64,000 bases of DNA from Plumapathes pennacea (lineage: Eukaryota > Cnidaria > Anthozoa > Antipatharia > Myriopathidae): positions 17,519,670-17,583,669 of the forward strand of contig OZ038467.1 in the NCBI GenBank assembly GCA_964036295.1, in the 5' to 3' direction. The translations under genes and the position numbers were made by a program. Positions 13,293 to 58,425 of this stretch are shown here, in pieces; the first letter of the stretch is position 1; every line of letters starts with the position of its first letter. Below the pieces are notes generated by a model. It had not been told where the DNA came from and ran no database searches. It saw only the letters and a list, made by a program, of their open reading frames with translations.

Positions 13293-14458
13293 TCAAGAGG
13301 ATGGCTGAATTCTCACGTCTTTTACTATTCCGTCACTAACAAAAACTGCTGCATCAGATACAACAAAGACGTGACAATCAACGGTCTCACCTGAAATACC
13401 GGCTAACTCAACAACTAATCTAACACCATCGTGTGATCTTCCTACCACAATTCCATCACCATGAAGGTCATTATCTTAAATCAACCCACAAAGCAAATTT
13501 GTCATTATGAAAGTCTATTTGAAAATAACTTGTGTGGAACACCATTGATAGAAACTTTGACAGAATTAACGAGGGGATTAATAAACTCTTCTGCCTTCCT
13601 CGCACCAGAATCAAAATTTTTCAAAAAGAATAACATTATTCCTTTCATACAACTTCTTGGTGTAGTTATATGAAAATTAATAGTAGATCCAGAATCAATG
13701 TTAATTGATGATTGTTTTTTGAAATGATGAACATCCTCATAATAGAAAGTTATCCCGTTTTGATAAGCGTTACTAGCAATTTTTTGCTAAATTTTCGTCT
13801 TCAATAGTTGCATATTCTAATTCTATTTCTTTCAATTCGTAACCATGTCCTTTTGTCTTGTCTGACGTTTTTACTATCGCAGAAGCTGGAGGTAGCGTTA
13901 TCTGGTTATCTGGTTATCTATCAAATTTCAATTCTGATTTCAACCCGCTTTGGTAATAAACTCCGTGATCATCTAAAACTGGATGAGATAAAGGAATGGG
14001 ATACCTATTATCATAAGTCGTATTCGTTTGTTTCTTGATCTTAGCATCTCCACTTCTTTTTGCCATAACCTTTCTTTTAGCTTCACTCATTACTCCTCTT
14101 TTTACATCTTCCTCACACGTCAGCATGTCATGATAACCATGAAAAATGTCGTATCTGTCTGTGTCACAAATAGTTTTTCACCAAACGTAATTTTCATTCG
14201 TTTTATTAAGTTTCTTGATACATTTTGAGCAAGATGGTTATCAGCATGCCCCTTTTCTACATCTATCTTGAACCTCAAAAACATACTTTTTGGAACAAAC
14301 ACCATGCTTTCATTTAATCTTGGCACGTCAACATAAATCGTTTCCCTAGGCTTAGCAGATGATGGTGTAAAAGTCGTTCTATGAGTAGTTATCTCTGCCT
14401 TCATTGCCCTGGACAATTTCGGTTTTCTAGTTGGATTAAGTATTTCTGCAATTGACAT
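13293..14458 (-). pseudogene. Polinton major capsid protein (double jelly-roll), decayed
   Basis: The minus-strand frame starts at 14458 (MSIAEILNPTRKPKLSRAMK). It continues with MVFVPKSMFLRFKIDV, then, after frame changes, TCEEDVKRGVMSEAKRK, RYPIPLSHPVLDDHG and LPPASAIVK, and ends with DLHGDGIVV, HDGVRLVVEL and CHVFVVSDAAVFV before a TGA at 13293-13295. This order and spacing fit the major capsid proteins of Polintons and related adintoviruses, which form the virion shell. Breaks: a frame change near 14165, an in-frame stop at 13914-13916 beside a duplicated 8-base string, a frame change near 13770, and more in 13450-13680. Start is 41 bp from the divergent integrase start. Confidence 0.7.
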
Positions 14459-14499
14459 ATTTATTTTAAAACGTAATACCAAATCTTTAAATTAAAAAG

Positions 14500-15473
14500 A
14501 TGGAAAAGATTTATTACTCGTCAAAAGGATATTGGAAAGGACAATCAGCAATTAAAAAACTTTCTTTAGAAGCAAAAGTTAGTGTTGAAGAAGCTAAAAA
14601 GCGGCTATCTAAACAGGCGCTTTGGCAAATTTATCTTCCCCCACCAAATAATGTTCCAAGACCACACTGGATTATTTCAGTACCAAACGAAATTCATCAG
14701 GCCGATCTCCTATTCCTCCCACACGACAAAGTTGGAAGAAAAACGTATAAATATGCTTTGGTCGTCATCGATATTGCTTCAAGATATGTTGACGCAGAAT
14801 ATCTCTCACAAGTAAGTCAAGTGATGAAGTATCAAACACTTTCAAAAAAAATTATTCAAGAAAGTTAAATGGCCAAAAACTTTGATTGTTGATCCAGGAA
14901 GAGAATTCATCGGATCTGTAACAACTTTGAACAAAAAAGCCACCGTTATCAAACGATCAGAAGCCGGTAATCATAGAGCACAGGCTTTTGTTGAGAGAGC
15001 AAATAAAACATTGGGAGAAAAAATATTTAGTCAACAATATGCCGACGAAATGTTAACTGAAGGCAGATCAACAAAGTGGGTAAATAGATTACCAAATATC
15101 GTGAAAACTATCAACAACCACGTCACTCGATTAACTGGTAAAAAAGCAATTAATGCTTATCGTGAAAAAAATGTTGAACAAGAATTCAGAAAATTATTCA
15201 CGACCAGTGGGATTTGATGAAAAAAGACTTGATCCTGGTGAAAAAGTGAGATATTTACTTTCTCCTGGTGAGGAAGAAGGAGGAAGTGTGAGGAGAGCTA
15301 CTGATCCCATATGGAGTACAAAAGTTTTTGAGTTAAAGAAAACTGTAATCTCCAAAGATCAACCAGTTTTATACTAGTTAGACGATGGACCAAAAAGAGG
15401 ATTCGTCAGAGAAGAATTACAAATTATTCCAGAAGATACTGAATTATTGCCAAAATTTGTATTAAAACAATAA
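14500..15473 (+). pseudogene. Polinton integrase (retroviral-type, rve), decayed
   Basis: Frame starts at 14500 (MEKIYYSSKGYWKGQSAIKK). The core has the three acidic positions of DDE integrases: HQADLLFLPH, then IVDPGREFIGS, then FVERANKTLGE. A C-terminal part (DPGEKVRYLL, then VFELKKTVIS) looks like the SH3/chromo-like tail seen in this family. In Polintons it inserts the linear element into the host chromosome. Breaks: frame changes near 14810 and 15200 and an in-frame stop at 15375-15377. The final stop at 15471-15473 is 5 bp from the convergent polymerase stop. Confidence 0.85.
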
Positions 15474-15478
15474 CATTA

Positions 15479-18335
15479 CTAAGTTTCATTTATTTTATAA
15501 TGGCTAAGAGCTAAAGTGTCTACCCCGTTTGGTAATATGTGTTTTTTATCTTCTTCCCTACTAAGCGCTATTTTGTTCACTTCTTCCGTGTAAATATCGT
15601 GTTCATAACTTCTAATGAGATTCATTGTCCTCATTCGCTTAGCACCAGCAAGAAGACAATCTTTATAATCCTGAAATCTAATATCTTTATTAATAACCGA
15701 CTTTTAACTCCCTTGCACTTCTTCTCGTTTATTGTGGAAGAATACACAATAAACGAATAAAGTTTTGCCCTCAAGCCAATAAACTCTGAAATTTGCTTTC
15801 CACCAACTTCATCCTTGAACATACCAATTACTTTCTTGTTAACACCAGTCGTAATTCCTGAAGAATGTTCCTTAGGGTAATTACTAGTGTCAAAATTAGT
15901 TAAAACATCACCACTAATATCTTTGTAAAAATCCTCCGTCTCTATTTCATACATTAATGAGTCTGTGTCAGTAAATAGTAACCTTGCCTTCTCCCCATAT
16001 TTCTTTTTGATATAGTCGTAGTGAAAGTCGTACATAAGAGTCTTGCTTGTGTCAAGTATCGACATTCCCAAGTAAACTGGCTTGTTAAAAACCATTTTCG
16101 TTCTATGCATGTGAACAGCGGCGAGGTTCTCACAAAATATTTTACTGCGGTTAAAACTTGGTTTTGCAATAAGTTTTCTCGCTTGTACCTCATTAGTGGT
16201 CAACTTAATATCCACCCTGTTGCGAATATTTTCCATTGTCTTTCCAAAAACTGAATTGTTCATCAGTTTGAAAAGTATTTCTCAATGTCATTCTTTGCAT
16301 TTGCTCGAAGTTTCGTATTCAAATCAATGTAATTTTTCAACCACGCACTCTCCTCAAGTGTTATTCCTTTGTGAATCTTCTTAACCAGCAAACCCAATCT
16401 TTCATACGTCTTTAACGCCTCATGATGAACAACATACTTTCTTTTATCACCAAGTGTAGGTACTAGCTTTTCACACTTCTCTATCATGATTCTCTCTGGT
16501 GCAAGTGGATAATCATTATGAAGGTCATGTAAATGTCTTGGATACTCCAAGTCTACCTCAAGAATGCAGGGGTGACTCCTCCAATCTTTCATCTCTTGGT
16601 GACTCATCCACTCAAAATCTTTGGTTGGTAATGGTTTACTCATTGCCCAGTCATAAAGATTATTTGCATCAAGATAAGTTATGTACTTCTTTTGTAGTGA
16701 ATCGTCGTACTTTTCCATGTAAAGATTGTTAGGTTCACCATGTCTCGTACAAATCATCGAAACACCCCCTCTCCCTTTCTCAACTATTAGCAACATGTCG
16801 ATGTCTGTTAGTAACTCTAATTCAACTTTCGTCAATTTCAGAGCTGCACTCCAAGCTAATCCTGTAGAAGTATAATACCAAGCTGGGTCTAACTTATAAT
16901 TTTCGAGACAAACGTCTCTAAAATTCTCAAAAACGTCTGCCAGCAAAAGAACGTCTGATTTCAAGTAAATAGTATGGTACCCTCTCATTGCTTTTATACG
17001 AAACGTTTTCCAAACATTTTTCGCATGTTCATAATCTTGTTCCGAAATTCTTTAATTATTTAGCTTTGAGTAAAATTCCTCAATAGGTGGAAGATTTGTC
17101 TCTTCTAATTTCTCGATGGAGTCCACATAATAAGGGTAAACACCTTTTCTCAGTAACAGGTTAAGGCGTCCACCCTTGTAAAATCTGGACAAGTTTTTAA
17201 ACTTCTCCTTATCAAGATTACCAGCGAGACTTGCTAAACTAGACGACATGAACTTGAAACTATCAATGAATCTAATGTCACGCTTCACATTAACCTCTTC
17301 ACCGGTTTCCTTGTCAATGAATGTATCAACGATTATCTTCTTCGTAAATGAAATGTAGTCTCATCGGTATTCGGAATGCATCGTATGTCACCACCCAATT
17401 CCTTTATAAAAAGATGAGCGTCGTAACGAGCTAAGTTGTGAAAAATTACTGGATAAAACCTTGGCACCTTGTATTTTAAATTACACTCATTATGAGCGGC
17501 TCCTCTAAATTTCCCTGTTATATGGCAATGATCTCTTACCTTATCATCTGTAGTGATCTCTTCCTCACAAATGTGGCAAATATTCGTCTCGTTAAATGCT
17601 TTCCTATCTTTCTTGCCAAACACCATTTCCTTAGAAAACTTTGTTATATTATAAATATGCTTAATAGCAATCTCAACCTTGCTTACAAATTTCTGCGCTA
17701 AATTATCATCCTCCGACTTTTTCGAAACAATGAAAGGACCGAATGAAAGACTGCCATATATACACTTGACATAAAACAAAACCCTGAAGGTGTATGTTTT
17801 TGATACTTTTTTGTATAGCTCTCATCACTAGATGGAGTAGACTTTGATAAAATCTTTTCCGTAAAGCACTCAAAGTCTGCGTAAATCACAAAAGGAACAC
17901 GCATACTCTTATTATAATCTTTGAACTTTATGAAAGACCTCTCTTCTGGTAGATCTATCATCGCAGCATCATTCCTTAAGCAGTATTCCAAATGTTTTTC
18001 TAAAGCTTTATCATTCGTAAACGAGTTTAAACAATAATTACAAAAATACCTCCTGTGCTTATTCTCACTCTTCTGTGCACTTAATAACCTACTCTTGTCT
18101 TTTATCCAACAATAATGCATAGTCTCATAATTTGATATTAAAATCAAATCAATGTGTTTTCTAGATTCTCTTAGCTTGTTAAATCTTAGTGGATAAACAC
18201 CTTTACCCGACTCATACCCAACAACGTTAACCGAAAATGGGTTTTCTTTCTCAAACGTGTCGATTTGTTTCAAAGAGACTGGAAACTCGCTTCCACTCCA
18301 ATCTAACTTTTCAGAATCCTCCCTCAGTTTCTATG
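15479..18335 (-). pseudogene. Polinton protein-primed DNA polymerase B, truncated and broken
   Basis: Reading on the minus strand, the motifs come in family order. A C2H2-like finger (CNYCLNSFTNDKALEKHLEY) is followed by exonuclease motif I (IYADFECF), an HNH/endonuclease-VII-like block (CHICEEEI with DHCHITGKFRG), exonuclease II (FHNLARYDAHLF) and exonuclease III (LKSDVLLLADVF). The polymerase motifs are A (YLDANNLYDWAMS), B (MNNSVFGKTMEN) and C (FTDTDSLMYE). This is the replicase of Polintons. Breaks: frame changes near 17775, 17345, 16265 and 15710, and a stop at 17052-17054. The N-terminus is absent where LINE sequence begins. Non-functional. Confidence 0.9.
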
Positions 18336-27440: not shown

Positions 27441-27613
27441 TCCAAGTCCCTTACAGAGATAGAGAGAGAGTGGGGGAGGTTAATAGGGGGCATGAAATGT
27501 TGACCCAATAATGTTGCCAAGCAGATGTTCCAGTTATGCATGTCTTATGTCCATCAATAACTAAACAAGTTCGTCCTGATGAAAATATCTCACGAAGTTC
27601 TTCGCTAATGCAG

Positions 27614-30600
27614 GACGAGAATCACTGATGGAGGAACTGCTTCTTCTCGCCGAGCAAACTATGAACAAGCAATCAAAAATACAAGTTCACGACACAATCG
27701 GTTGTCGTTATTATTCTACCGGACAGTACAAAGATGCTATACAACATTTTCAAGTGTGCCTTGCAACCGCAAAAGAGATTGGAGACAAGAAAAGAGAAGG
27801 AACCGCTTATGGTAACCTTGGTGCTTCCTATAACGGTCTAAGCCAGTACGACAAGGCTATTGAATATCAAAAAATGCACCTTATTATCGCAAAACATATT
27901 GGAGACAGAAATGGAGAAGGAACAAGTTATGGCAACCTTGGTGTTTCCTATTGCTCTCTCGGCCAGTACGACCAAGCTATTGAACATCATAAAATGTCCC
28001 TTACCATTGCAAAAGAGATCGGGCAGAAAGGTGGACAAGGAACAGTTTATGGCAATCTTGGTGTTCTCTATCACTCTCTCGGCCAATACGACAAAGCTAT
28101 TGAATATCACGAAATGCGCCTTATTATCGCAAAAGAGATTGGAGACAAAAATGGAGAAGGATCTGCTTATGGCAACCTTGGTGCTTCCTATAATTCTCTC
28201 AGCCAGTACGACAAGGCTATAGATTATCAGAAAATGTGCCTTACTATCACAAAAGAGAATGGAGATAAAAGTGGAGAAGGAAGAGCTTACTCCAACCTTG
28301 GTGTTTCCTATCACTCTCTCGGCCAGTACGACAAGACTATTGAATATCAGAAAATGTTCCTTACAATCGCAAAAGAGATGGGAGACAAAAATGGAGAAGG
28401 AACTGCTTATGGCAACCTTGGTGCTTCCTATAACTCTCTCTGCCAGTACCAAAAGGCTATTGAATATCAGAAACTGAGCCTTAATATCGCAAAAGAGATT
28501 AAAGACAGAAATGGAGAAGGAAGAGCTTATGGCAACCTTGGTTTTTCCTATAACTCTCTCGGCCAATACAACAAAGCTATTGAATATCAGGAAACGCGCC
28601 TTTTAATTGCAAAAGAAATTGGAGATAAAGATGGAGAAGGAACAGCTTATTCCAACCTTGGTGTTTCCTATCACTCTCTCGGCCAGTACGACAAGGCTAT
28701 TGAATATCAGAAAATGTTCCTTACTATCGCAAAAGAGATTGGAAACAAAAAAGGAGAAGGAACTGCTTATGGCAACCTTGGTGCTTGCTATAAATCTCTC
28801 GGTCAGTATGACAAAGCTATTGATTATCAGAAAATGTGCCTTACAATCGCAAAAGAGATTGGAGACAAAAATGGAGAAGGAGCAGCCTATGGCAACCTTG
28901 GTGATTCCTTAGACTCTCTCGGCCAATACGACAAGGCTATTGAATATCAGAAAATGTACCTTATTATTGCAAAAGAGATTGGGAACAGAAATGGAGAAGG
29001 AGCAGCTTGTGGCAATCTTGGTGTTTCCTATAATTCTCTCGGCCAATACGACAAAGCTATTGAATATCAGGAAATGCGCCTTCTAATTGCAAAAGAAGTT
29101 GGAGACAAATCTGGAGAAGGAGCAGCTTATGGCAACCTTGGTATTTCCTATTGCTATCTCGGCCAATACGACAAAGCTATTGAATATCAGAACAATTGCC
29201 TTACTATCGCAAAAGAGATGGAAACAAAGGTGGAGAAGGAACAGCTTATTGCAACCTTGGTGCTTCCTATTACTTTCTCAGCCAGTACGACAAGGCTATT
29301 GAATATCAGAAACTGAGCCTTCATATCGCAAAAGAGATTAAAGACAGAAATGGAGAAGGAAGAGCTTATGGCAACCTTGGTGTTTTTCATACCTCTCTCG
29401 GCCAATACGACAAAGCTATTGAATATCAGAAAATGTCCCTTACTATCGCAAACGAAATAGGACACAAAAGTGGACAAGGAACAACTTATGGCAACTTTGG
29501 TGTTTCCTATTACTCTCTCGGCCAGTACAACAAAGCTATTGAATATCAGAAAATGTCCCTTACAATCGCAAAAGAGATGGGAGACATAAATGGAGAAGGA
29601 ACTGCTTATGGCAACCTTGGTGCTTACTATAACTCTCTCTGCCAGTACAAAAAGGCTATTGAATATCAGAAACTGAGCCTTAATATCGCAAAAGAGATAA
29701 AAGACAGAAATGGAGAAGGAAGAGCTTATGGCAACCTTGGTTTTTCCTATAACTCTCTCGGCCAATACAACAAAGCTATTGAATATCAGGAAATGCGCCT
29801 TTTAATTGCAAAAGAAATTGGAGATAAAGATGGAGAAGGAACAGCTTATTCCAACCTTGGTGTTTCCCATCACTCTCTCGGCCAGTACGACAAGGCTATT
29901 GAATATCAGAAAATGTTCCTTACAATCGCAAAAGAGATGGGAGACAAAAATGGAGAAGGAACTGCTTATGGCAACCTTGGTGCTTCCTATAACTCTCTCT
30001 GCCAGTACAAAAAGGCTATTGAATATCAGAAACTGAGCCTTAATATCGCAAAAGAGATTAAAGACAGATATGGAGAAGGAAGAGCTTATGGCAACCTTGG
30101 TTTTTCCTATAACTCTCTCGGCCAATACAACAAAGCTATTGAATATCAGGAAATGCGCCTTTTAATTGCAAAAGAAATTGGAGATAAAGATGGAGAAGGA
30201 ACAGCTTATTCCAACCTTGGTGTTTCCTATCACTCTCTCGGCCAGTACGACAAGGCTATTGAATATCAGAAAATGTTCCTTACTATCGCAAAAGAGATTG
30301 GAAACAAAAAAGGAGAAGGAACTGCTTATGGCAACCTTGGTGCTTGCTATAAATCTCTCGGTCAGTATGACAAAGCTATTGATTATCAGAAAATGTGCCT
30401 TACAATCGCAAAAGAGATTGGAGACAAAAATGGAGAAGGAGCAGCCTATGGCAACCTTGGTGATTCCTTAGACTCTCTCGGCCAATACGACAAGGCTATT
30501 GAATATCAGAAAATGTACCTTATTATTGCAAAAGAGATTGGGAACAGAAATGGAGAAGGAGCAGCTTGTGGAAATCTTGGTGTTTCCTATAATTCTCTCG

Positions 30601-33600
30601 GCCAATACGACAAAGCTATTGAATATCAGGAAATGCGCCCTCTAATTGCAAAAGAAGTTGGAGACAAATCTGGAGAAGGAGCAGCTTATGGCAACCTTGG
30701 TATTTCCTATTGCTATCTCTGCCAATACGACAAAGCTATTGAATATCAGAACAATTGCCTTACTATCGCAAAAGAGATTGGAAACAAAGGTGGAGAAGGA
30801 ACAGCTTATTGCAACCTTGGTGCTTCCTATTACTTTCTCAGCCAGTACGACAAGGCTATTGAATATCAGAAACTGAGCCTTCATATCGCAAAAGAGATTA
30901 AAGACAGAAATGGAGAAGGAAGAGCTTATGGCAACCTTGGTGTTTTTCATACCTCTCTCGGCCAATACGACAAAGCTATTGAATATCAGAAAATGTCCCT
31001 TACTATCGCAAACGAAATAGGACACAAAAGTGGACAAGGAACAACTTATGGCAACTTTGGTGTTTCCTATCACTCTCTCGGCCAATACGATAAGGCTATT
31101 GAATATCTCAAAATGCGCCTTACCATTGCAAAAGAGATTGGAGACAAAAATGGAGAAGGAAATGCTTATAGCAACCTTGGTGCTTACTATAACTCTCTCA
31201 GCCAGTACGACAGGGCTATTGATTATCAGAACCTGAGCCTTCATATCGCAAAAGAGATTAGAGACAAAAATGGAGAAGGAAGAGCTTATGGCAACCTTAG
31301 TGTTTCCTATTACTCTCTCGGCCAGTACAACAAAGCTATTGAATATCAGAAAATGTCCCTTACTATCGCAAAAGAGATTGGAAACAAAAATGGAGAAGGA
31401 ACTGCTTATGGCAAACTTGGTGTTTTCTATGACTCTCTCAGCCAGTACGACAAGGCTATTAAATATCAGAAGCTGAGCCTTGATATCGCAAAAGAGATTA
31501 AAGACAGAAATGGAGAAGGAAGAGCTTACGGCAACCTTGGTGCTTCCTATAACTCTATCGGCCAATACGACAAAGCTATTGAATATCAGGAAATGTGCCT
31601 TAACATCGCAAAAGAGATTGGAGACAAAAATGGAGAAGGAGCAGCCTATGGCAATCTTTGTTTTTCGTACCACTTTCTCGGCCATTACGACAAAGCTATT
31701 GAATATCAGAATATGCGCCTTAATATTGCAAAAGATATTGGAGACAAAAAAGGAGAAGGAACAGCTTATGGCAACCTTGGTGTTTCTTATCGCTGTTTCG
31801 GCCAATACAACAAAGCTATTGAATATCAGGAAATGCTCCTTCTAATCGCAAAAGAGGTTGGACAAAAATCTGGAGAAGGAAGAGCTTATGGCAACCTTGG
31901 TGTTTCCTATAACTATATCGGCCAGTACGACAAAGCTATTGAATATCAGAACAAGTGCCTTATTATCGCAAAAGAGATTGGAAACAGAAATGGAGAAGGA
32001 AAAGTTTATGGCAACCTTGGTCTTTCCTATGACTTTCTCGGTCAGTACGACAAGGCTATTGAATATCATAAAATGCACCTTAATATCGCAAAAGAGATTG
32101 GAGACAAATCTGGAGAAGGAACAGCTTATGGCAACCTTGGTTTTTCCTACAACTTTCTCGGCCAGTACGACGAAGCTATTGAATATCAGAAAATGCGCCT
32201 TAATATCGCAAAAGAGATTAAAGACAAAAATGGAGAAGGAACAGCTTATGGCAACCTTGGTTTTTCCTATGACTTTCTCGGCCAGTACGAGAAAGCTATT
32301 GAATATCACAAAATGCACCTTAGTATCGCAAAGAAGATTAAAGACAAAGATGGAGAAGGAGCAGCTTATACAAACCTTGGTACTTGCTATAACTCTATCG
32401 GCCAGTATGGTGATGCTAAAAGAAATTTTAAAAAAAGTGTAAAGTGCTATTTTAAACTGCTGGAAGCTGTGCCCAGTTGGGATAAATATAAAGTTACTTT
32501 TATTGAGAAGTTTGTGGAGATAAATAAAGGTTTGGTAAAAATCCTTTTGTATCAAAAGAAAAAGGACAAGGCTCTAATTGCTGCTGAAAACGGACGTTCA
32601 AGAGCTTTAGTTGACCTGATGTCCACCTATCCCGTCAAATGTGAATCCAGGATTAAAGACCTCTATCAAACCCGTAAAGTGGTCAAGGCCCTGGAAAGTA
32701 CAGTTCTCTTCTTTGCGTTACTTAGCCATGATATTTGTACTTGGGTCATTCAGCCAAATGGAGATGTTTTGTTTCATCATCAAACTTGTACCGAGGATTT
32801 GGACTCTCTTATTAGTAAGGCTGTAGAGTCGATACAACCAAGTAAGAATGCCAGAATGAACTGTTTGCTGAAAGCTCTGTACCAGATTCTTCTGAAGCCT
32901 GTTCGACAACATGTGGTGGGTTCTCAGTTAATTATCGTCCCTGATGGAAAACTCGCTCTGGTTCCATTTGCCGCCCTCAAGGATGAGAACGGACACTACA
33001 TGGCAGAATCCTTACGAGTGAGACTAATTCCATCTCTAACAACAGCAAAGATAATCAAAGATTACCCGGTTGATGTACTGTCAGGCCAGGCAAGACCCTT
33101 GATAGTGGGAGAGCCAGAAGTGGGCAAAGTGTGCAAGGATGGTAAAGTTATCACTCCGCCAAGAATACCATTGGCATTGAAAGAATTGGAATTGATCAGT
33201 GAAATTCTCTACGTCAAGCCACTTGTGGGGGATAAGGCGACCAAAAGGAGGTTTCTACGGAGAGTTGAAAGTGCCAGTTTAATTCATGTTGCAGCACACG
33301 GAGATAAAGATAGGGGAGAGATCTTGCTTGCCCGTTCTCCTGAAATGCCTGAAATTCCCAAAGCTACAGATCTCATGCTTCTCATTTCCGATCTCGAACG
33401 CAAACGCATCAAGGCAAAGCTGGTTGTTCTTAGTTGCTGTCACAGTGGATGTGGTGACGTCATGAGAGGAGAAGGGGTGGTCGGTATAGCTCGTGCGTTT
33501 CTCGGAGCTGGAGCTAGAGCGGTTCTTGTAACACTGTGGGCGGTTGATGATGGGGCCACCACGTGTTTTATGTCTCGTTTCTACCAGTACCTTAAAAATG

Positions 33601-33731
33601 GCGAAAGTGCAAATGGAGCACTCAATCAAGCTATGAAGGACGTGAGAGAATACAAGAAATTCTACCATCCCCGCTACTGGGCTCCTTTTGTCCTCCTGGG
33701 AGATGATGTGACTCCTTTTCCTAAACCATGA
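27614..33731 (+). CDS. Giant TPR-CHAT protein (frameshifted once)
   Basis: About 40 TPR units of exactly 40 residues (consensus AYGNLGVSYHSLGQYDKAIE with KMxLTIAKEIGDKNGEG) run from 27776 to about 32420. A helical linker follows, then a C-terminal CHAT domain, a caspase-like protease fold. The family's catalytic His lies in IHVAAHGDKDRG and the Cys in VLSCCHSGCGD (residues 1368 and 1415 counted from 29196). The fold's end (YWAPFVLLGDD) is intact. The first ATG is at 27628, but an in-frame AG acceptor at 27612-27613 and open sequence upstream suggest an internal exon. Frame is lost at 29219, where one T is missing relative to the duplicate unit at 30779. It could be a real null mutation or a sequencing error. 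The role in animals is unproven; TPR-CHAT proteins are tied to proteolytic signalling. Confidence 0.85.
28261..31070 (+). repeat. Internal duplication in the TPR array
   Basis: 28261-29510 and 29820-31070 are almost identical at DNA level, offset by 13 units of 120 bp (1559-1560 bp). A smaller 3-unit shift (360 bp) relates 29575-29935 to 29935-30295. The first block alone carries the 1-bp deletion at 29219. This points to recent unequal exchange, or to an assembly effect. Confidence 0.75.
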
Positions 33732-37069: not shown

Positions 37070-38270
37070 TCCCCGAAAGAAGTGAGGGAAATACTCTAAT
37101 GCAGTAATATTATACCGTCTACTTGTGTTATACCGCTTACTTGGAGACTCCAAGCCTGTCGCCATCTCAAAATTTAACGTTGTCTGTCAGTCAGTCAGTC
37201 AGTCAGTCAGTCTGGCGTACGACTTTAGGCGCGGTTACCCCGCTAATCAATAACAAAGGCCGGATCGATCACGTGTGCCCTATTGTTTTACTCGGAATAA
37301 TTGAGAAATTAGATTTGAACGAAGCATTTAGATTTGAACGAAGCAACAATATATCGTAGCTGCGTTCACGAAAATGGAAAACTTAACTGAAAAACTTGAA
37401 GCACAGCAGTCTCGCGAAGCTCGTCTTCAAATGAGAAGGGGAACAGGCACGAGCAAGGCGAAATCGTGAAACGAGTGAACAACGCCAAATTCGTCTCGAG
37501 AAAAGGCGACAATCCTGTTATGATCGACAGCATCATAAAAAGAATCGTGCCGAAGAAACGAATCCGCAAAGAAAACAGCGCATGAATGCCGATCGAAAGC
37601 AACATGAACAGAAACGGTTGACACAGACAACTCCGCAAAGAGAATCCAATCGCCAGCGAGTAGCTTCTCGACGTGGCAATGAACCGTAGTACCCGCAGGC
37701 TTCAAGCTCAAAATGAAGCCAACACTCGACGCCGACAACAGCATGCTGCAGTTTTAATATCAAAGAACGTCGCAGCCAAAAACAACAATATTTGCATAAC
37801 CGTGGGTGGGCAAATCCAGAAATTCCTCCATTCCACGAACAAGAATGGATGCGGGAAGAACTCACTGCCTTTCACAGCTTTGAGGAAAATATCCGACACT
37901 TACGCTGCAAGGTATGCAGAGAAACATGGACGATCACCAACCAAAGTGTGCCCGAGCTGAACTATACCTGCACCAGGTGCAAACGCGACAAAAAGACCTC
38001 GTGTCGATTGTTCTCAGCTGAAAACGACATGGATCCTGGAACAGTCCCTGCAGAACTACAGGACCTCACCGAAGTAGAGGAAATGCTGATCGCCAGAGCT
38101 TTCCCAATCATGTGTGTTCACCGGAAACACGGCGGCCAGCGTGGGTACAAAGGTCATGTCCTCAACTTGCCACAGGATGTTCAGGGATTTCTCAGCACTC
38201 TTCCAGCCAATGTGAGTGATCTGCCCGTTCTTATCATCAGGAAGCAAGGGGCAGGTAAGAATTGAAAACT
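37070..38270 (+). mobile_element. Helitron 5' part, copy 2, with DUF6570-type domain
   Basis: The TC terminus is at 37070 (TCCCCGAAAGAAGTGAGGG after an A). The leader contains a CAGT microsatellite. The coding region from about 37374 first reads STPR-type basic repeats (about 37430-37680), then, after a frame change, the block 37792-38265 with two Cys pairs (CKVC, then CTRC), ENDMDPGTVPAELQDLTEVE and INLPQDV-like NLPQDVQGFLSTLPANVSDL. This order is that of the N-terminal half of Helitron replicase/helicase proteins (zinc domain of DUF6570 type). The frame closes at a GGCAGGTAAGAAT donor-like string at 38255. No Rep or helicase domain follows. At least two frame changes. Confidence 0.75.
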
Positions 38271-49856: not shown

Positions 49857-50115
49857 ACAGAAGTGAGTCAAAAGACGAGAATGCTACGATCGTTGGACAC
49901 GGAGCATTCCGCAGGAATACGCGAGTGCTAGTTTGGATCTGACGTACCTGTAAAATGTTGACAATAAATCAGTTATATACGGCTAATAACGGAACCCGAA
50001 GAGTTGCAGTTGCGTTTTTTACTTGCTAATTGACTACTGCATTCTGTTTTTTGCGGGCCGAGGTTGAGAAAGCGTGAATTTGGTTCTCTTTTGATTTGCT
50101 GTGTGAAGGTTTAAT

Positions 50116-50478
50116 GTGAGAATGATGTTTACTGGGCCTTTACCCCCTGGTTTGAGGGACGTCAATGTTCGTGGAGATGGCAATTGTATTTATAGGGCTA
50201 CTGCCATGTGGATGGAGGGCAAAAGTGACAACAATCACGGGGAAATCAGGATGATGTGCAGCCAGTCAATCGAGGGTCATCCTTACGTGTTTCAGCCTTT
50301 GTTAATTACCACAAACTCAGTGATCGATTATGTGAAGAGGAGCAAGATTACAGGTACTTGGGCAGAAACTGTTGACAGTTTTAGTACTGCTACATTCCTG
50401 CAGCGCACAATTTTTATCTTTTCCCAAGTTAGACAACAATGGTTAATATTCGAGCCACTATTCAGCAGTTGTCTATGA
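50116..50478 (+). pseudogene. OTU-type cysteine protease fragment
   Basis: The frame has ATG at 50122 and reads MFTGPLPPGLRDVNVRGDGN. The box RGDGNCIYRATAMW contains the catalytic Cys of OTU deubiquitinases. Next comes a helical region, then ITGTWAETVDSFSTATFLQR, as in OTU proteins of cnidarians and of some transposons. The family's C-terminal part with the catalytic His is missing: the frame stops after about 120 residues (QQWLIFEPLFSSCL). It is therefore a truncated, inactive copy. It lies inside the 95-bp inverted repeats, so it may be transposon cargo. Confidence 0.75.
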
Positions 50479-52393: not shown

Positions 52394-53015
52394 CAGGTAC
52401 GTCAGATCCGAATTAGCACTTGCGTATTTCTGTGGTATGGTCCGTGTTCCACGATCGTAGCAACTTTGTCTTGTAACTCACTTCTGTAGATGTACATCAA
52501 AAGATTACACTGCAAAAATAAGACAGCTTTAATCTCTCAAGCACAGTGAACACGTTGGTAGCAATATGCAGCGTGGAATTCACTCAGCAACAACAGAAAA
52601 GAGGAAACACTTTACATTAACAGCAGGCCCCGGCAACATGTTTTAATCTTGTAACGTGGAGACTTCTCTTAGCATATTACCGAACTAAGCATTTGCAATC
52701 CAAATAAGAAAATTACTTGCCTCAGGAACAGACGGTTTTGATTTAACACAGGAAGCATAAAGAACGAGTAATTCACTCATGAGCTCCAGAAAATAGATAG
52801 GAAAAAGTTACATTTAAGACCATATATAACCCATTCAGCCAGAGGAAGTCTGGGGATACAGAAAATATAACTAACATGACATGCACGAACTAGGTCATTT
52901 ATAGATTCCCTGGTTTTGTGAGTCGCGTGCAAAACCACACTTTTCCATTCAACAAAGCAACATTACTTTTTTATGCAGTAATTTCGAGGTATACTGTATC
53001 CACCAACCCAAGACA

Positions 53016-56000
53016 ATGGAGAACTGTTTTGATGCAAAGAAGTTTTCAAGTTTCAGTCGGCTGAGTTTCCTCAGTTTGACCGTCTTTGGCATTGGAGCAT
53101 CTGTCTTTCTGACTGCTGCGATTACCATAGCAATTGCCGAACCATTACAATTCGTGTGCCTCACAACAGCAGGAATCAAGGCAATAGACAGGATCCAGGA
53201 ACAGGGTCGTGAGGACTATGGAATGAGGGCTGGCCAATTCCCCATATATGCTTTTGTGTTGTTGGATTTCCTTCCTATACTGCTGGTGTGTTTCTTGTAC
53301 CAAGTGTCGGTCAACACTGGCGAGCAGAAAATGGTGACAGGCTGTTGCAGAGTGTCTACAGCATATGTTAGTATACTTTTCTTCAGAATCCTCGTGCTGG
53401 CTGTTCTTGTGCCATTGCAGTGGGGGTATTTCTACCCTGTCTTGTTCCCAGCCAAGCACGTCTTCACTCTGCTACAAACTGATCAGGTATTACTTACTGG
53501 ATACAACTTCACTAAAGATACAAATGCAACAATTGCACCTTTGGTTTACAACTGCAAGAACCGTGTTGCTGTGGCAAAATCCACCTTGAGTATTGTTCTG
53601 TTTTTGGTACGCTGTTTTGTGTTGGTCCTCTCTTTGATGGAGATGATTCAGCTTGCAAATAGGACAAGAAAATTCAATGGAAATGGATCATTCCTCAATG
53701 ATCAAGTGTTTTGTCAAAATTTTCTTGAAATGGAAGGTAGGAATAATAAAAAGTGTAATTAAAATTATGATATTACAGTAATACAGTCAACGAACGCTAT
53801 TTCGAAGTCTCATGGGGAATGAAAAAGTTTGAAATAGCAGGGTTTTGAAATAGTCAAGCTTGACAAGCTAGTCAAACTAATCCAATGGGATTCTTCTTAA
53901 CGTGGAATTAACCGAGTTCGAAATGGCGGGGCTCGACTGTATTTATTTACGTATACAGCGCTGTTTCCAACAAATTACCCAATAGCTCTTTACATGCATT
54001 CAAAAACGGCTGTCTTACAAAAATGACTTGCAATCATCTGAAAGTTATGACCTATTACATACTAATCTACTTAAAATACACATATTTATGACGAAAACTA
54101 TAACAGTATATACGTTCTATATTCTACTAAATTTTCTCCTAATTCCTTAATCTTTACCAACATGCGTAGACTCTTTAAAAAGTAGGCTTTAACTACTCTT
54201 AAAACTAGAGGCGGAGGGAGCAAATCTTACTTCCTGTGGCAGAGAGTTCCATCAGGAAGCGAACAGCATGTAAGAAAGCTCTAAAGCCACATGTTCATAA
54301 GTTCTAAGTCGAAGTTGAATTAGTTACTTATTATTGGCAGAATAAAGAGATCTGCTCGGAAGCAGTCTCAGTTTACTGCTAAGGTTATGTGCACCAACAC
54401 CCTTATAAAAACACTATAAACTACACAATATTGAGTATTTTGTTTCAGACTGAGTATTTTCTGTATTTCAAATATGGCACCTTGGAACTAAACGGCTTCA
54501 CTTAAAAACAACTGTCTTACCCATTTTGGTCACATTAATTTACTGTAGACTTTGTCTCCCCCCCAAACAAAATACATGCCATCTTGGCAGTCACCCATTA
54601 TACAGTGCTGCTGCAATATTTTTAGCAAATAGCTGGCAGACCAAAAGTTGCACATTTAATGTTCTATTCTGTTGTATCTGCAGGCTGTCACGATGCTGAA
54701 GGTCGAGGACTTTGTATGGAAGAACGAGCAAGTAACTAATCTCCTCCTCAAACCCACTGCGAATACAAGAAATATTTCCTGCAAACAAAATAGACCAAAG
54801 AGCTGAAAGAAAGACCTATGTGACAAAATACTCGCTAGTGATCAAAATTTGTCTCGCATGCAAAGGTCTTGAATCAGGGCCCGAAATTAACTTTTTATCA
54901 TTCACCAGCTAGAAAAATCTTGTTACCAAGGTCATATTTTTGGTTCCACTACTTTTTTGGTTTGGATTGCCTGTGGAAGCTTTAAGAAGTTTTGTGGAAC
55001 GCAAGTTGTCATTGAAATATTTTTGGAAAAATTAGTAGACTATTGGAGTCCAAAAATACTTTATAATACTTTATAATTCCAATCCCTGTACTCTGATAGT
55101 TGATGATCTTCAAGTGTGCTGTTTCTTCAGGTCAATTGAATGCTCCCACAAGCCAACCAACCACATTACCAGAGGAAGAATTTGTAAGGAAAGATGCAGG
55201 TAAGTGAACATTGCATTGCGCTTTCCTTGAGAGCATTCCTGACTGTCAGAATAAATTCATTTTGTCAGAACTTGGAAACATTCATTTCACTGGGACTGAA
55301 CATAATTCATTAGGTGCAACAGGAGATGAATGAAATATTGTTAATGTGTAGAACTGTAGTTGAGAATGAGAATATAAAGCTGATGGAAATTAGAGCTGAT
55401 TAGCTATAAATTCTCACTACGTCTCTAATACATGCTCTTCTCGAGTCGTTGGAGGAATTAGTATTATGAACTTGGGGGTGAATTTTTTTTTTTTTGCGTG
55501 ACCTCTATTTTTTCATTTAAAATTAGATATACATGTAAGCACTGGTAGACCATCAATGCTCCTAACAATGCCCATCCATTTTTGTTCAGTGCAGTTTGGG
55601 AGAACTGGAATATTGATACTGGGGGCTAAGATATAAATAAGGATTTTTTTATACAACCTGCAGTCTTGATGAGGCTTTTCAAATAAGTTTAGATTCACTG
55701 TTTTTACAGGTCACCAGGATGTCTCCACAAGCCAGTCAACCGCATCACCAGAGGACTCAGTTGTGAAGGAAGCTGCAGGTAAGCAAGCAGGACCCGTATG
55801 ACTGGTTTATTGAGTAAAAGAAGCTGGTTTGGCTCATCAAAAAAATGTTACTCATGCATGCTCAACAAAGAAATATGAGTTCATTAACAGACTATCTGAC
55901 GTTACTCACTCAGCTAGCAGGGTATAATTAACAAGGAAGGCATTGCAAATTAATGTTGTATTAATGTTCTGTTTCTGCAGGTTGCCCAGATATCTCCTCA

Positions 56001-58425
56001 AGTCAAGCACCCACATCACCAGAGGACCCAGTCACAAAGGAAGTTAAGTGTAAGTTAATGTTGTGTTTTGCTATCCTTATGGGCATCCTAACTGTTGTTA
56101 TTGATAAACCAACACAAATAACGTAAAACCTTGATATAAAAAAGGCCAAGGGACTGAGAAAATATGCTCATTATAGCAGGGTTTCGCTATAGCAAGGTTC
56201 TGCTTCCATACTTTTTACTGTAACGGGCTGAATGATATCATTCGTTATATCAAGGTTTTTGTTATACCAAGGGTCGTTATATCGATGTTTCACTGCACCT
56301 TCTAGGGTTTTCCCTGCATTGGAGTCTTTGTTGTTGTCACTACCCTGAAAAAAAGCCTTGAGACCAACATATTAGTGCTATTTAATGTTCATGTGTAAGC
56401 CCCCTTCAGGTCGTGAACTTCATGATTATCAAAGAGTTGTGGCAACTTCTACAAAAGATGACAAAGCCTTAGCTTCAAAATCACCAAGAAGCCAAAAAAT
56501 TATCTTCAGGTTAATGCTGAAGCTTAAGAATTAAGATATGGTTTTCAATTATTACGGTAATGGTCTATATGAAATGAAACTTTAAGAAATTTTAGGACCT
56601 TCCTCAGTTTCAGTTTTGATTGTTCTTTTCTGATTCTTTTCTAGTCTTACTGCACAATATGCGGGAAGAGTACAAGAGACGAGAAGCTTTCCTTCACCCA
56701 TTCCCGTGGTGTGAAGACTTTCAACTCTCTTTGAACAAAATCTACACCAAAGTCAGAATGGTTACCAGGAAGAAAGAGCGATCCGAACTGACTGAGAAAA
56801 GGTGCAGTTTGTATGAGGTATTCCAACCACACGAAGAATGCGGAAATCCTCGAGTTGTTCTCTTAGAGGGAAAACCCGGGATGGGTAAGACTGTATCTTG
56901 TCAGAAAGTAACATTCGATTGGTCTATGGGTGAAACCAACGGATTTTTGAATGATGTGAAAGTTTGGCTAAAGATAAAGTGCCGCGATCTCAAGAATGCT
57001 GACATCAAAGAGGCGATTATCGGGGAATTGCTTCCATTGGACTTGTCGCAAGAAGTAAAGACGGCCTTCTTTAAACACATCAAAAGTTCTGAATCTGGGG
57101 TTTTGCTTGTGTTGGACGGCTTAGATGAACTTGAAGAAGGCATTGATCTCTTTCCCTTGATTAAAGGAAAACTGTTCCCCCACTGTCGCCTTCTGTTAAC
57201 GAGCAGGAACAACCCGAAGCTCAGGCAGTACTGCGATACTCTTTTTCAGATAATCGGCTTCACTCGAGAACACGCAAAGGATTTCATCGTAAAGTACTTC
57301 AGGAATAACGAAGAAAAAAGGAAAATTCTCCTTGACAGAATAGAAAGTCTGGGTTATGAAGAAAGAGAAGAGGACGAAGAGATCAAGCATGGCGCTTACT
57401 TTGAAGAGCTCCTTTCCAGTCCGCTCAACACTGCTCTTCTGTGCTTAGTGGTGGAGGATATGGGCCGGCTTCCTTCTCGGACGACGGAACTGTACCAGGA
57501 CCTAACGGGCTGTCTTTTGAGGCGGCACTACAAAAAGAAGAAGCAAGAACCTCCTGTTGACCCTATCGCGACACACGAAGAAGACCTCGCCGCTCTCGGT
57601 CGTTTAGCCCTCGAAGGAATTAAAAATGACCGACTCCACTTCAACCAAGACGACTTACACACCGAAGACCGCGCGACGACAATCCTGGATTACGGATTTC
57701 TTTCGAAAGAAACGAGCACTTCAATTCTCAATCCACGCTCTTCGTATCAATTTCTGCACAAAACACTGCAGGAATTCTTTGCCGCTTTAAGTTTCCAGTT
57801 GCAGATTTTGTCAGGTAACGCGGCTTGCTTTGAATATCTTAGTGAGGCTACAGGTCATGTATATAAGTACAAACAAGTAGCGATTTTCCTTGTTGGTCTT
57901 TTGAGTCAAAAAGCTGAGGCAGGAAATCTTTGTGTTCGTTTAGTGTCCTCTATCACACAGTCCATTTCTAATTATGATGATGATTCTAGTTTTTTGTACA
58001 TTTGTGAATTGATCCGTGAAAGTGTCAGCGACGAGTTACAGCAGGATTTACAAGCCGCTGTCGTCAGCAGTTTCATTTGGGAGGAACTGTACCTGATCAA
58101 CACGCGGATTAATGAGAATTCTGTAGAATATCAACTTGTGTGTCAAGCAGTGAAAGAGAATTGTCCGCTGGAGAAGATATATTTGGGCGACAACGAGATA
58201 AAAGATATAAATCTACTAGCACATTCTATGGTGAGTAACTCAACTTTGAAATCTTTATCTTTGTATAATAACCAGCTTCTCCTCACAGGTGTTCGTGCAC
58301 TGGCTCAAGCACTCCACAACAACAAGACGTTAGAATGCTTATGGTTAGACAAGAAGTGGAGTGTCGAGCCAACTGTACAGAAGTTAAAACGACATAACCT
58401 ACTTCTGGATATTCAATTTTTATAA
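53016..58425 (+). CDS. Four-TM / NACHT / LRR fusion protein (5 exons)
   Basis: Predicted exons: 53016-53736, 55131-55199, 55710-55778, 55981-56049 and 56645-58425. All introns are phase 1 with GT/AG ends. The sum is 2709 bases (902 residues and a stop). Exon 1 (240 residues) has four hydrophobic helices at about 17-41, 76-98, 115-138 and 190-212. Two glycosylation sequons (N164-F-T, N170-A-T) lie in the loop between helices 3 and 4, so N- and C-termini should face the cytosol. Exons 2-4 each give a Ser/Thr/Pro-rich 23-residue linker. Exon 5 has a NACHT domain with P-loop GKPGMGKT (385-392) and Walker B LLVLDGLDE, then a winged-helix-like region with QFLHKTLQEFFAAL, then two or three LRRs (LEKIYLGDN, LKSLSLYNNQL, LECLWL). 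It resembles cnidarian NLR proteins. The N-terminal family is not recognised. An apparent frame start at 56620 is TTG inside the acceptor region, so it is not a start. Confidence 0.75.
53782..53941. mobile_element. MITE in intron 1, 160 bp
   Basis: Ends TACAGTCAACGAACGC...ATTTCGAA and TTCGAAATGGCGGGG...GACTGTA are inverted repeats with a few mismatches, flanked by TA. It is pogo/mariner-like. Confidence 0.7.
54130..54420 (-). pseudogene. LINE C-terminal remnant in intron 1
   Basis: Minus-strand reading LRTYEHVALELSYMLFAS, then WNSLPQEVRFAPSASSFKSS, with stops, matches the WNSLP tail motif of LINE ORF2 proteins. Short and decayed. Confidence 0.5.
55131..56049 (+). other. Three tandem-duplicated 69-bp linker exons
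   Basis: Exons 55131-55199, 55710-55778 and 55981-56049 are each 69 bp, start with GT and end in phase 1. They encode related peptides of the form G....S.SQ...SPED.V.KE. Each is flanked by a CAG acceptor and a GTAAG donor. Because they are symmetric, any number can be skipped or added without losing frame. Confidence 0.75.
56120..56300. repeat. pogo-like MITE in intron 4
   Basis: AAAACCTTGATATAA near 56125 and the end TTATATCGATGTTTCACTGC near 56276 are imperfect inverted partners. TATAGCA strings occur between them. Related ends lie at 46933 and 53782. Confidence 0.5.

Follow-up and report, generated by a model that had tools for sequence, protein, structure and literature searches.

A membrane-anchored NACHT-LRR protein predicted in Plumapathes pennacea and the probable relationship of its N-terminal module to connexins

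Gene structure and domains

Cytosolic animal proteins of the NACHT-leucine-rich repeat type (NACHT-LRR proteins, NLRs) carry CARD, PYD or BIR domains as N-terminal adaptors. Here a predicted gene of the antipatharian Plumapathes pennacea is described in which the NACHT-LRR part follows a four-helix transmembrane (4TM) domain, a member of a family which can be linked to connexins, the gap-junction channel proteins of vertebrates. The gene occupies positions 53016-58425 of the plus strand of a window of 64,000 nucleotides, this being the whole stretch of DNA analysed (assembly GCA_964036295.1, contig OZ038467.1, positions 17,519,670 to 17,583,669 of the forward strand).

The model consists of five exons. 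All four introns are bordered by GT and AG and are in phase 1, and the coding length of 2709 nucleotides makes 903 codons including the stop, which yields a protein of 902 amino acids. These properties had been proposed from the letters of the sequence alone (the original prediction) and were reproduced to the base. The four helices found by hydropathy and the Pfam NACHT match, both contained in one model, also bear out the polytopic N-terminal membrane domain joined to NACHT and LRRs that had been described there. The linker between the two parts is made up of three 69-bp exons with similar sequence, and an 18-bp stretch at 54684 between AG and GT is a candidate for an extra exon which the model leaves unused. 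Splicing of this particular copy into one gene is a prediction from its sequence; that the fusion of 4TM and NACHT is real we regard as nearly certain.

The protein has the NACHT domain of NLRs, with 71.9 bits against a cut-off of 26.7 for the Pfam model, and the motifs GKPGMGKT (residues 385-392) and LLVLDGLDE (residues 463-471), which we take to be Walker A and Walker B, are intact. The Pfam models for the winged helix, the HD2 region and the short LRRs (NOD2_WH, NLRC4_HD2, LRR_4, LRR_6) stayed below their cut-offs in the window copy. In several relatives NOD2_WH and NLRC4_HD2 exceed them, and LRRs are clear in relatives as well, with 153.5 bits for LRR_6 in L022 (L-numbers designate loci in the same genome, C-numbers its contigs). 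Coordinates are collected in Table 1.

Table 1. Predicted features of the NLR gene in the window; helix positions derive from hydropathy and are approximate
Feature	Position	Strand	Basis
Exon 1, four-helix connexin-like domain, aa 1-240, N-terminus predicted cytosolic	53016..53736	+	model, hydropathy, genome matches, family profile
TM1, aa 22-42 (approximate)	53079..53141	+	hydropathy
Cys48, outer loop 1, invariant in 18/18 copies; family position corresponds to Cx43 C54	53157..53159	+	alignments
TM2, aa 74-95 (approximate)	53235..53300	+	hydropathy
TM3, aa 115-138 (approximate), with invariant Y117 and R124	53358..53429	+	hydropathy, alignment
Sequon N164 (NFT), loop 2 between helices 3 and 4	53505..53507	+	sequence
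Sequon N170 (NAT), loop 2 between helices 3 and 4	53523..53525	+	sequence
Cys180, outer loop 2, invariant in 18/18 copies; family position corresponds to Cx43 C198	53553..53555	+	alignments
TM4, aa 189-212 (approximate), with invariant E209	53580..53651	+	hydropathy, alignment
Exon 2, 69-bp linker exon, phase 1-1	55131..55199	+	gene model
Exon 3, 69-bp linker exon, resembles exons 2 and 4; counterpart at C6:20875706	55710..55778	+	gene model, paralog comparison
Exon 4, 69-bp linker exon	55981..56049	+	gene model
Exon 5, NACHT, helical region, LRRs, stop	56645..58425	+	gene model, Pfam
NACHT domain, aa 379-530	56851..57306	+	Pfam, E 7e-20
C-terminal LRR region	58114..58422	+	LRR_4 and LRR_6, below cut-off

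Conservation of the fusion in related copies

Relatives were searched for in the genome of the animal (290 Mb, 24 contigs); counts of matches include the query itself as well as fragments, and the best candidates were scored. The exon-1 product yielded at least 20 matches at E <= 0.001, itself included, and two paralogs used as queries yielded at least 32 and at least 24. The window copy found C3:3525151 (L004) with an E value of 6.6e-22. Eighteen copies with a nearly complete 4TM domain were brought into one alignment (A2), and a second alignment (A1) has 17 members. Outside A2 are L015 and L020 (which nearly duplicate L017 and are in A1), L016, the L024 copy at 604, L026, L028 and a second L013 fragment; the copies left outside are otherwise truncated, inserted or frame-broken, and some of the listed matches were not aligned.

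In nine of the eighteen A2 copies (L011, L012, L013, L018, L021, L022, L027, L029, and L037) a single open frame contains both the 4TM domain and a NACHT domain above the cut-off; in L018 and L027 this frame terminates within the NACHT. L022 encodes 1200 amino acids in one frame and scores 37.8 bits for the Pfam Connexin model (PF00029, cut-off 31.3 bits) and 98.8 bits for NACHT, in addition to its LRRs; L027, with 514 amino acids in one frame, scores 33.3 and 58.6 bits, respectively. In four further copies (window, L009 with L034, L010, and L019) 4TM and NACHT are on different exons, with order and strand unchanged. In the nearest paralog (C6:20.87 Mb, L009/L034) the 4TM exon is followed by a 69-bp linker exon and this by the NACHT exon, so that the order is kept. 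Against a general pairing stand the remaining five copies, for which a full NACHT was not found in the fetched DNA: none was seen in about 8 kb downstream of L014 and L023 or downstream of the L024 copy at 2194, L025 has a short NACHT remnant, and L017 a weak NACHT piece 5 kb off.

When 5.8 billion proteins were queried with a full-length paralog, five proteins from ENA were obtained (P0001-P0005, 954-1144 amino acids), which are 41-49% identical to L022 across 95-100% of its first 330 residues. They probably derive from another genome, because their best identity to the fetched loci is 47-57% along long stretches and all long frames listed in the genome are among the loci analysed here. For P0001 and P0005 the precomputed annotation of the database gives connexin (PF00029), NACHT and LRR. 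The pairing anticipated for relatives is kept in the single-frame copies, in the paralogs with ordered exons and in the five ENA proteins.

A cluster of connexin-like copies (L013, L015, L016, L017, L020, and L025) was observed at C3:3461000-3506400. L015, L017 and L020 are frames of 235 amino acids which stop directly after TM4, and some other copies of the cluster are broken. It is possible that copies in this cluster are stand-alone connexin-like genes.

Relationship of the membrane domain to connexins

When the alignment A2 was compared with the Protein Data Bank (PDB), 34 of the 36 matches at E <= 10 were connexins, the best with 7.8e-12; a galanin receptor, at 0.016 or worse, was the non-connexin match, and innexins, pannexins, CALHM and LRRC8 were absent from these matches. 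A1 gave connexins in 15 of 24 matches (best 3.8e-6), the other nine having E values of 0.23 or worse. Even the three most divergent copies alone (A7) matched connexins in 34 of 35 cases (best 6.9e-9). In Pfam, the Connexin model was found by 12 of the 17 A1 members (best 3.4e-11) and other families by one or two members each, with no innexin/pannexin, CALHM or LRRC8 in the list for these members. Besides L022 and L027, three single copies exceed the PF00029 cut-off, L024 with 42.4, L028 with 32.8 and L026 with 32.4 bits. The divergent copy L037 aligns with positions 8-223 of the 225 positions of the connexin profile, scoring 27.4 bits and thereby staying below the cut-off. A scan of the genome with PF00029 pointed to 16 places, five of them above the cut-off; L030, L031 and L032 were dropped from these as low-complexity frames by eye.

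A number of results weigh against this relationship. All other scanned single copies stay below the cut-off or have no connexin score, and on rescoring the five ENA proteins reached only 15.8-28.7 bits, all five below it. Neither A2 nor the 4TM domain of the window copy retrieved a match from the same 5.8 billion proteins. A5 found connexins in six of six PDB matches, weakly (best 0.0072), and connexins made up none of the two matches of A6 (L014, L019, and L023) and none of the four of A8, which represents the three-member clade of the window (window, L009, and L010). The exon-1 product of the window yielded no connexin by Pfam (0 families) or by a single-sequence search of the PDB. An AlphaFold prediction of P0001 (five rows) had pLDDT values below 50 for residues 1-629 and was confident only in the LRRs, so that it says little about the fold of the membrane domain.

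On the alignments, the window copy is connected to connexins by membership in its family and not by a match of its own, and the family of N-terminal modules is very probably a divergent connexin homologue. The original prediction had restricted the similarity to channels to topology. This view had to be abandoned in favour of sequence homology at the level of the family, the window copy alone being without a match, and the idea of a tetraspan with topology-only likeness was dropped for exon 1 once the family profile had matched connexins.

Topology of the membrane domain

Both outer loops, TM3 and TM4 contain the residues which are invariant in all eighteen aligned copies. The loop motif E-x3-F-x-C is present in 15 of the 18, and in every copy the number of cysteines in loop 1 equals that in loop 2, one in each in three copies and two in each in fifteen. 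Four of the five ENA proteins also have equal numbers; the exceptions which speak against this match are P0004, with one cysteine in loop 1 and three in loop 2, and L026 and L028 (outside the alignment), where inserts add cysteines to loop 2. Aligned with Cx43, whose residue numbers are in part assumed here, the cysteines of the family correspond in loop 1 to C54 and C65 and in loop 2 to C187 and C198, and other residues stand where Cx43 has C61 and C192. In connexins the disulfides are formed between C54 and C198, C61 and C192, and C65 and C187. With this pairing the family, as aligned, is devoid of exactly one cysteine pair, C61/C192, and the clade of the window is devoid of a second one, retaining C48 and C180 in the window copy. 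Loss of cysteines in pairs fits disulfides that join the outer loops and supports the predicted topology.

Glycosylation sequons occur in loop 2 of 16 of the 18 aligned copies and in loop 1 of none. From the two between helices 3 and 4 of the window copy a cytosolic NACHT had been predicted, and this part of the original prediction stands: the NACHT is in all likelihood on the cytosolic side. Two more sequons of this copy, N215 and N223, are located past helix 4, in a part predicted to be cytosolic.

Proposed mode of action and alternatives

The reading we prefer, with somewhat more than even confidence, is that of a membrane-anchored NLR with a divergent connexin homologue as N-terminal module which acts as a gated pore. 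Whether a connexin-type pore is gated by the NACHT-LRR part is an even question. In such a mechanism the protein would reside in the membrane with both termini and the NACHT-LRR part facing the cytosol, and the LRRs or the helical region would sense a ligand or a disturbance. Nucleotide exchange would then let the NACHT domains assemble as a ring, which would gather or open a connexin-type hemichannel, and the open pore would let ions pass or small molecules (e.g., ATP) escape as an alarm or death signal. An undocked channel is favoured over a gap junction because of the loop-2 sequons and the absent middle cysteine pair, and is only the better guess. Glycosylation of pannexins hinders the formation of gap junctions (PMC8769644), whereas gap junctions of invertebrates are also built from glycosylated innexins according to the same source, which weakens the argument for an undocked channel.

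An alternative that we consider rather unlikely, if the most serious, is a connexin-like domain serving as a non-conducting anchor and oligomerisation scaffold, with an ordinary NLR signalling at the membrane via unknown partners. The pore function is something we infer, the window copy has kept only one of the two loop cysteine pairs that fifteen of the aligned copies retain, and its 4TM exon appears weakly constrained, with a ratio of nonsynonymous to synonymous substitution rates (dN/dS) of 0.84 (dS 0.18) to the nearest paralog, L009; these points would suit an anchor. The invariant residues in the outer loops, TM3 and TM4, however, exceed the needs of a bare anchor, and even the divergent L037 is similar along almost the entire connexin profile, at its score below the cut-off.

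Far less probable is convergence among four-helix proteins with paired loop cysteines. The low scores of most single copies and the failure of the window clade and of A6 to match by themselves would be in keeping with it. The PDB includes structures of innexins, pannexins, CALHM and LRRC8, and none of these other four-helix channels was matched by A2 at E <= 10; moreover A7 and A5, which have no members in common, both rank connexins first (A5 weakly), and the region matched, in which the cysteines line up, comprises the loops, TM3 and TM4.

The least probable reading, two neighbouring genes with exon 1 as a separate small connexin-like protein and a NACHT-LRR beginning elsewhere, could appeal to the open frame of exon 1, which by itself runs to a stop at 53762 just 8 codons beyond the predicted donor, to an alternative acceptor at 56410, which speaks against the fused model in that about 40 codons and a stop follow and a short product without NACHT results, and to L014, L023 and L024 at 2194, but it is hard to reconcile with in-phase exons at canonical sites, with the nine single-frame copies, with the exon order kept in L009/L034, L010 and L019, and with the transcripts of NLRs with transmembrane domains (TMD-NLRs) published for sea anemones (PMC5094078).

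If the preferred reading of a connexin-type gated pore is true, the published, unexplained membrane-bound NLRs of anthozoans would become readable as sensor-gated pores.

Comparison with known proteins

In connexins proper each outer loop has three cysteines and is unglycosylated. The family shares with connexins (PF00029) the four helices, the E-x3-F-x-C loop motif, cysteines in register and a glutamate near the end of TM4. It differs by one or two cysteines per loop in all eighteen copies (no C61/C192 pair), by the sequons in loop 2, a feature read from sequence only, by the fusion to NACHT-LRR and by a non-chordate host. LRRC8 volume-regulated channels are four-helix large-pore proteins with cytosolic LRRs in the same chain and without a NACHT; they have the combination of four helices and predicted LRRs in a single chain in common with the window NLR and are unmatched by the family profile. 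In plant CNL resistosomes, e.g., ZAR1, the N-terminal part is thought to form the pore itself; it consists of coiled-coil (CC) helices and not of a polytopic channel domain, and NB-ARC takes the place of NACHT. NLRC4 and NOD2 share the order NACHT, winged helix, HD2, and LRR, of which the last three are matched below the cut-offs in the window copy, and differ in that the window NLR has a membrane domain in place of the N-terminal adaptor.

The closest precedent is the report of anthozoan TMD-NLRs by van der Burg et al. in 2016, where 8 of 35 NLRs had three to five N-terminal transmembrane domains (PMC5094078). Like the window NLR, with several N-terminal helices by hydropathy on a NACHT-LRR, these carry N-terminal helices on a NACHT-LRR, with transcripts in several sea anemones. 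The original prediction called the membrane-anchored layout unusual, which goes too far in view of this precedent. Going by the description, the window family is probably this published family. Its membrane domain is left unnamed in the main text of PMC5094078, where "connexin", "ion channel" and "gap junction" do not occur, nor does "connexin" occur in the main text of a survey of NACHT partners in 15 cnidarians (PMC8260672). No report of a connexin-NLR was among the titles and abstracts found, which cover few subscription papers, so that an earlier report elsewhere is possible.

Evolution of the two domains and the host

The NACHT of the window had a dN/dS of 0.29 (dS 1.02) to L034. For the pair of window and L010 the values were 0.35 for the 4TM and 0.13 for the NACHT, the latter with saturated dS, and other 4TM pairs ranged from 0.35 to 0.67 with the exception of L014 and L023. 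These two (C6:19.84-19.90 Mb) are 90% identical and have a dN/dS of 2.09 (dN 0.057, dS 0.027), which is based on few changes. Distances of 4TM and NACHT correlate among 18 proteins (13 own, 5 from ENA; Mantel r 0.83, 0 of 5000 permutations).

The stretch 52510-54298 of the window (exon 1 with its 5' flank and the beginning of intron 1) and C6:20868924-20870956 are 81-83% identical, noncoding parts included. As the NACHT exons of these two C6 copies are far more diverged than the 4TM exon and its flanks, the comparison suggests that the 5' block was recently exchanged or converted between them. The NACHT domains of the window, L009, L010 and L019 are 19-27% identical to those of the single-frame copies, and those of L029 and L037 32-40% to the others (L029 and L027, 67%); for the 4TM domain the order of similarity is opposite. 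The membrane module may have been joined a second time, to a different NACHT lineage, with unequal rates as the alternative. It may also have been swapped among NACHT lineages in the form of a phase-1 exon.

The mitochondrial contig C24 (17,711 bp) has TGA for tryptophan and AGA/AGG for arginine at sites of COX1 and COX2 which we take as conserved, and its COX1 is split by an intron whose frame contains motifs that by eye resemble LAGLIDADG. With the bacterial code, ARAGORN detected no tRNA in two stretches of C24 which contain COX3, COX1, ND4L, COX2 and the 3' end of rnl. Arginine for AGR presumably rules out the mitochondrial codes of vertebrates, tunicates, lancelets and echinoderms. By these codes the host would be a non-chordate, and the mitochondrial layout, taken by itself, fits a hexacorallian anthozoan, perhaps a sea anemone. 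A search for GFP-like genes gave no match, a result that does not demonstrate their absence.

Two surveys (PMC6391747 and PMC8769644), one by HMMER with PF00029 plus BLAST and the other by BLAST, restrict connexins to tunicates and vertebrates, apart from a sea-urchin transcript that is unconfirmed, and regard them as acquired in chordates. For the origin of connexins, a homologue outside the chordates would provide a testable root. Tentatively, and with slightly less than even confidence, we suggest that the connexin-type domain was present in the cnidarian-bilaterian ancestor or earlier, and hence not new in chordates, and was kept in anthozoans as the output domain of NLR immune sensors in which one chain would be sensor, switch and pore, an animal parallel to the resistosome channel of plants.

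Neighbouring sequences in the window

About 20 kb upstream of the NLR gene, long frames with TPR repeats and a terminal CHAT domain (191 bits) were found at 27583-33731 on the plus strand; the frames 27583-29316 and 29184-33731 overlap and may be one gene. Frames resembling a Maverick/Polinton element extend from 14120 to 18330, with a type-B DNA polymerase on the minus strand (16266-17051, 46.4 bits) and an integrase-like frame assigned by eye at 14491-15217, in which the piece 14491-14865 had no Pfam match. A DUF6570 domain (74.9 bits) at 37717-38265 of the plus strand is, at a guess, part of a mobile element, and a fragment of an OTU-like cysteine protease domain (36.9 bits) is located at 50107-50478 of the same strand.

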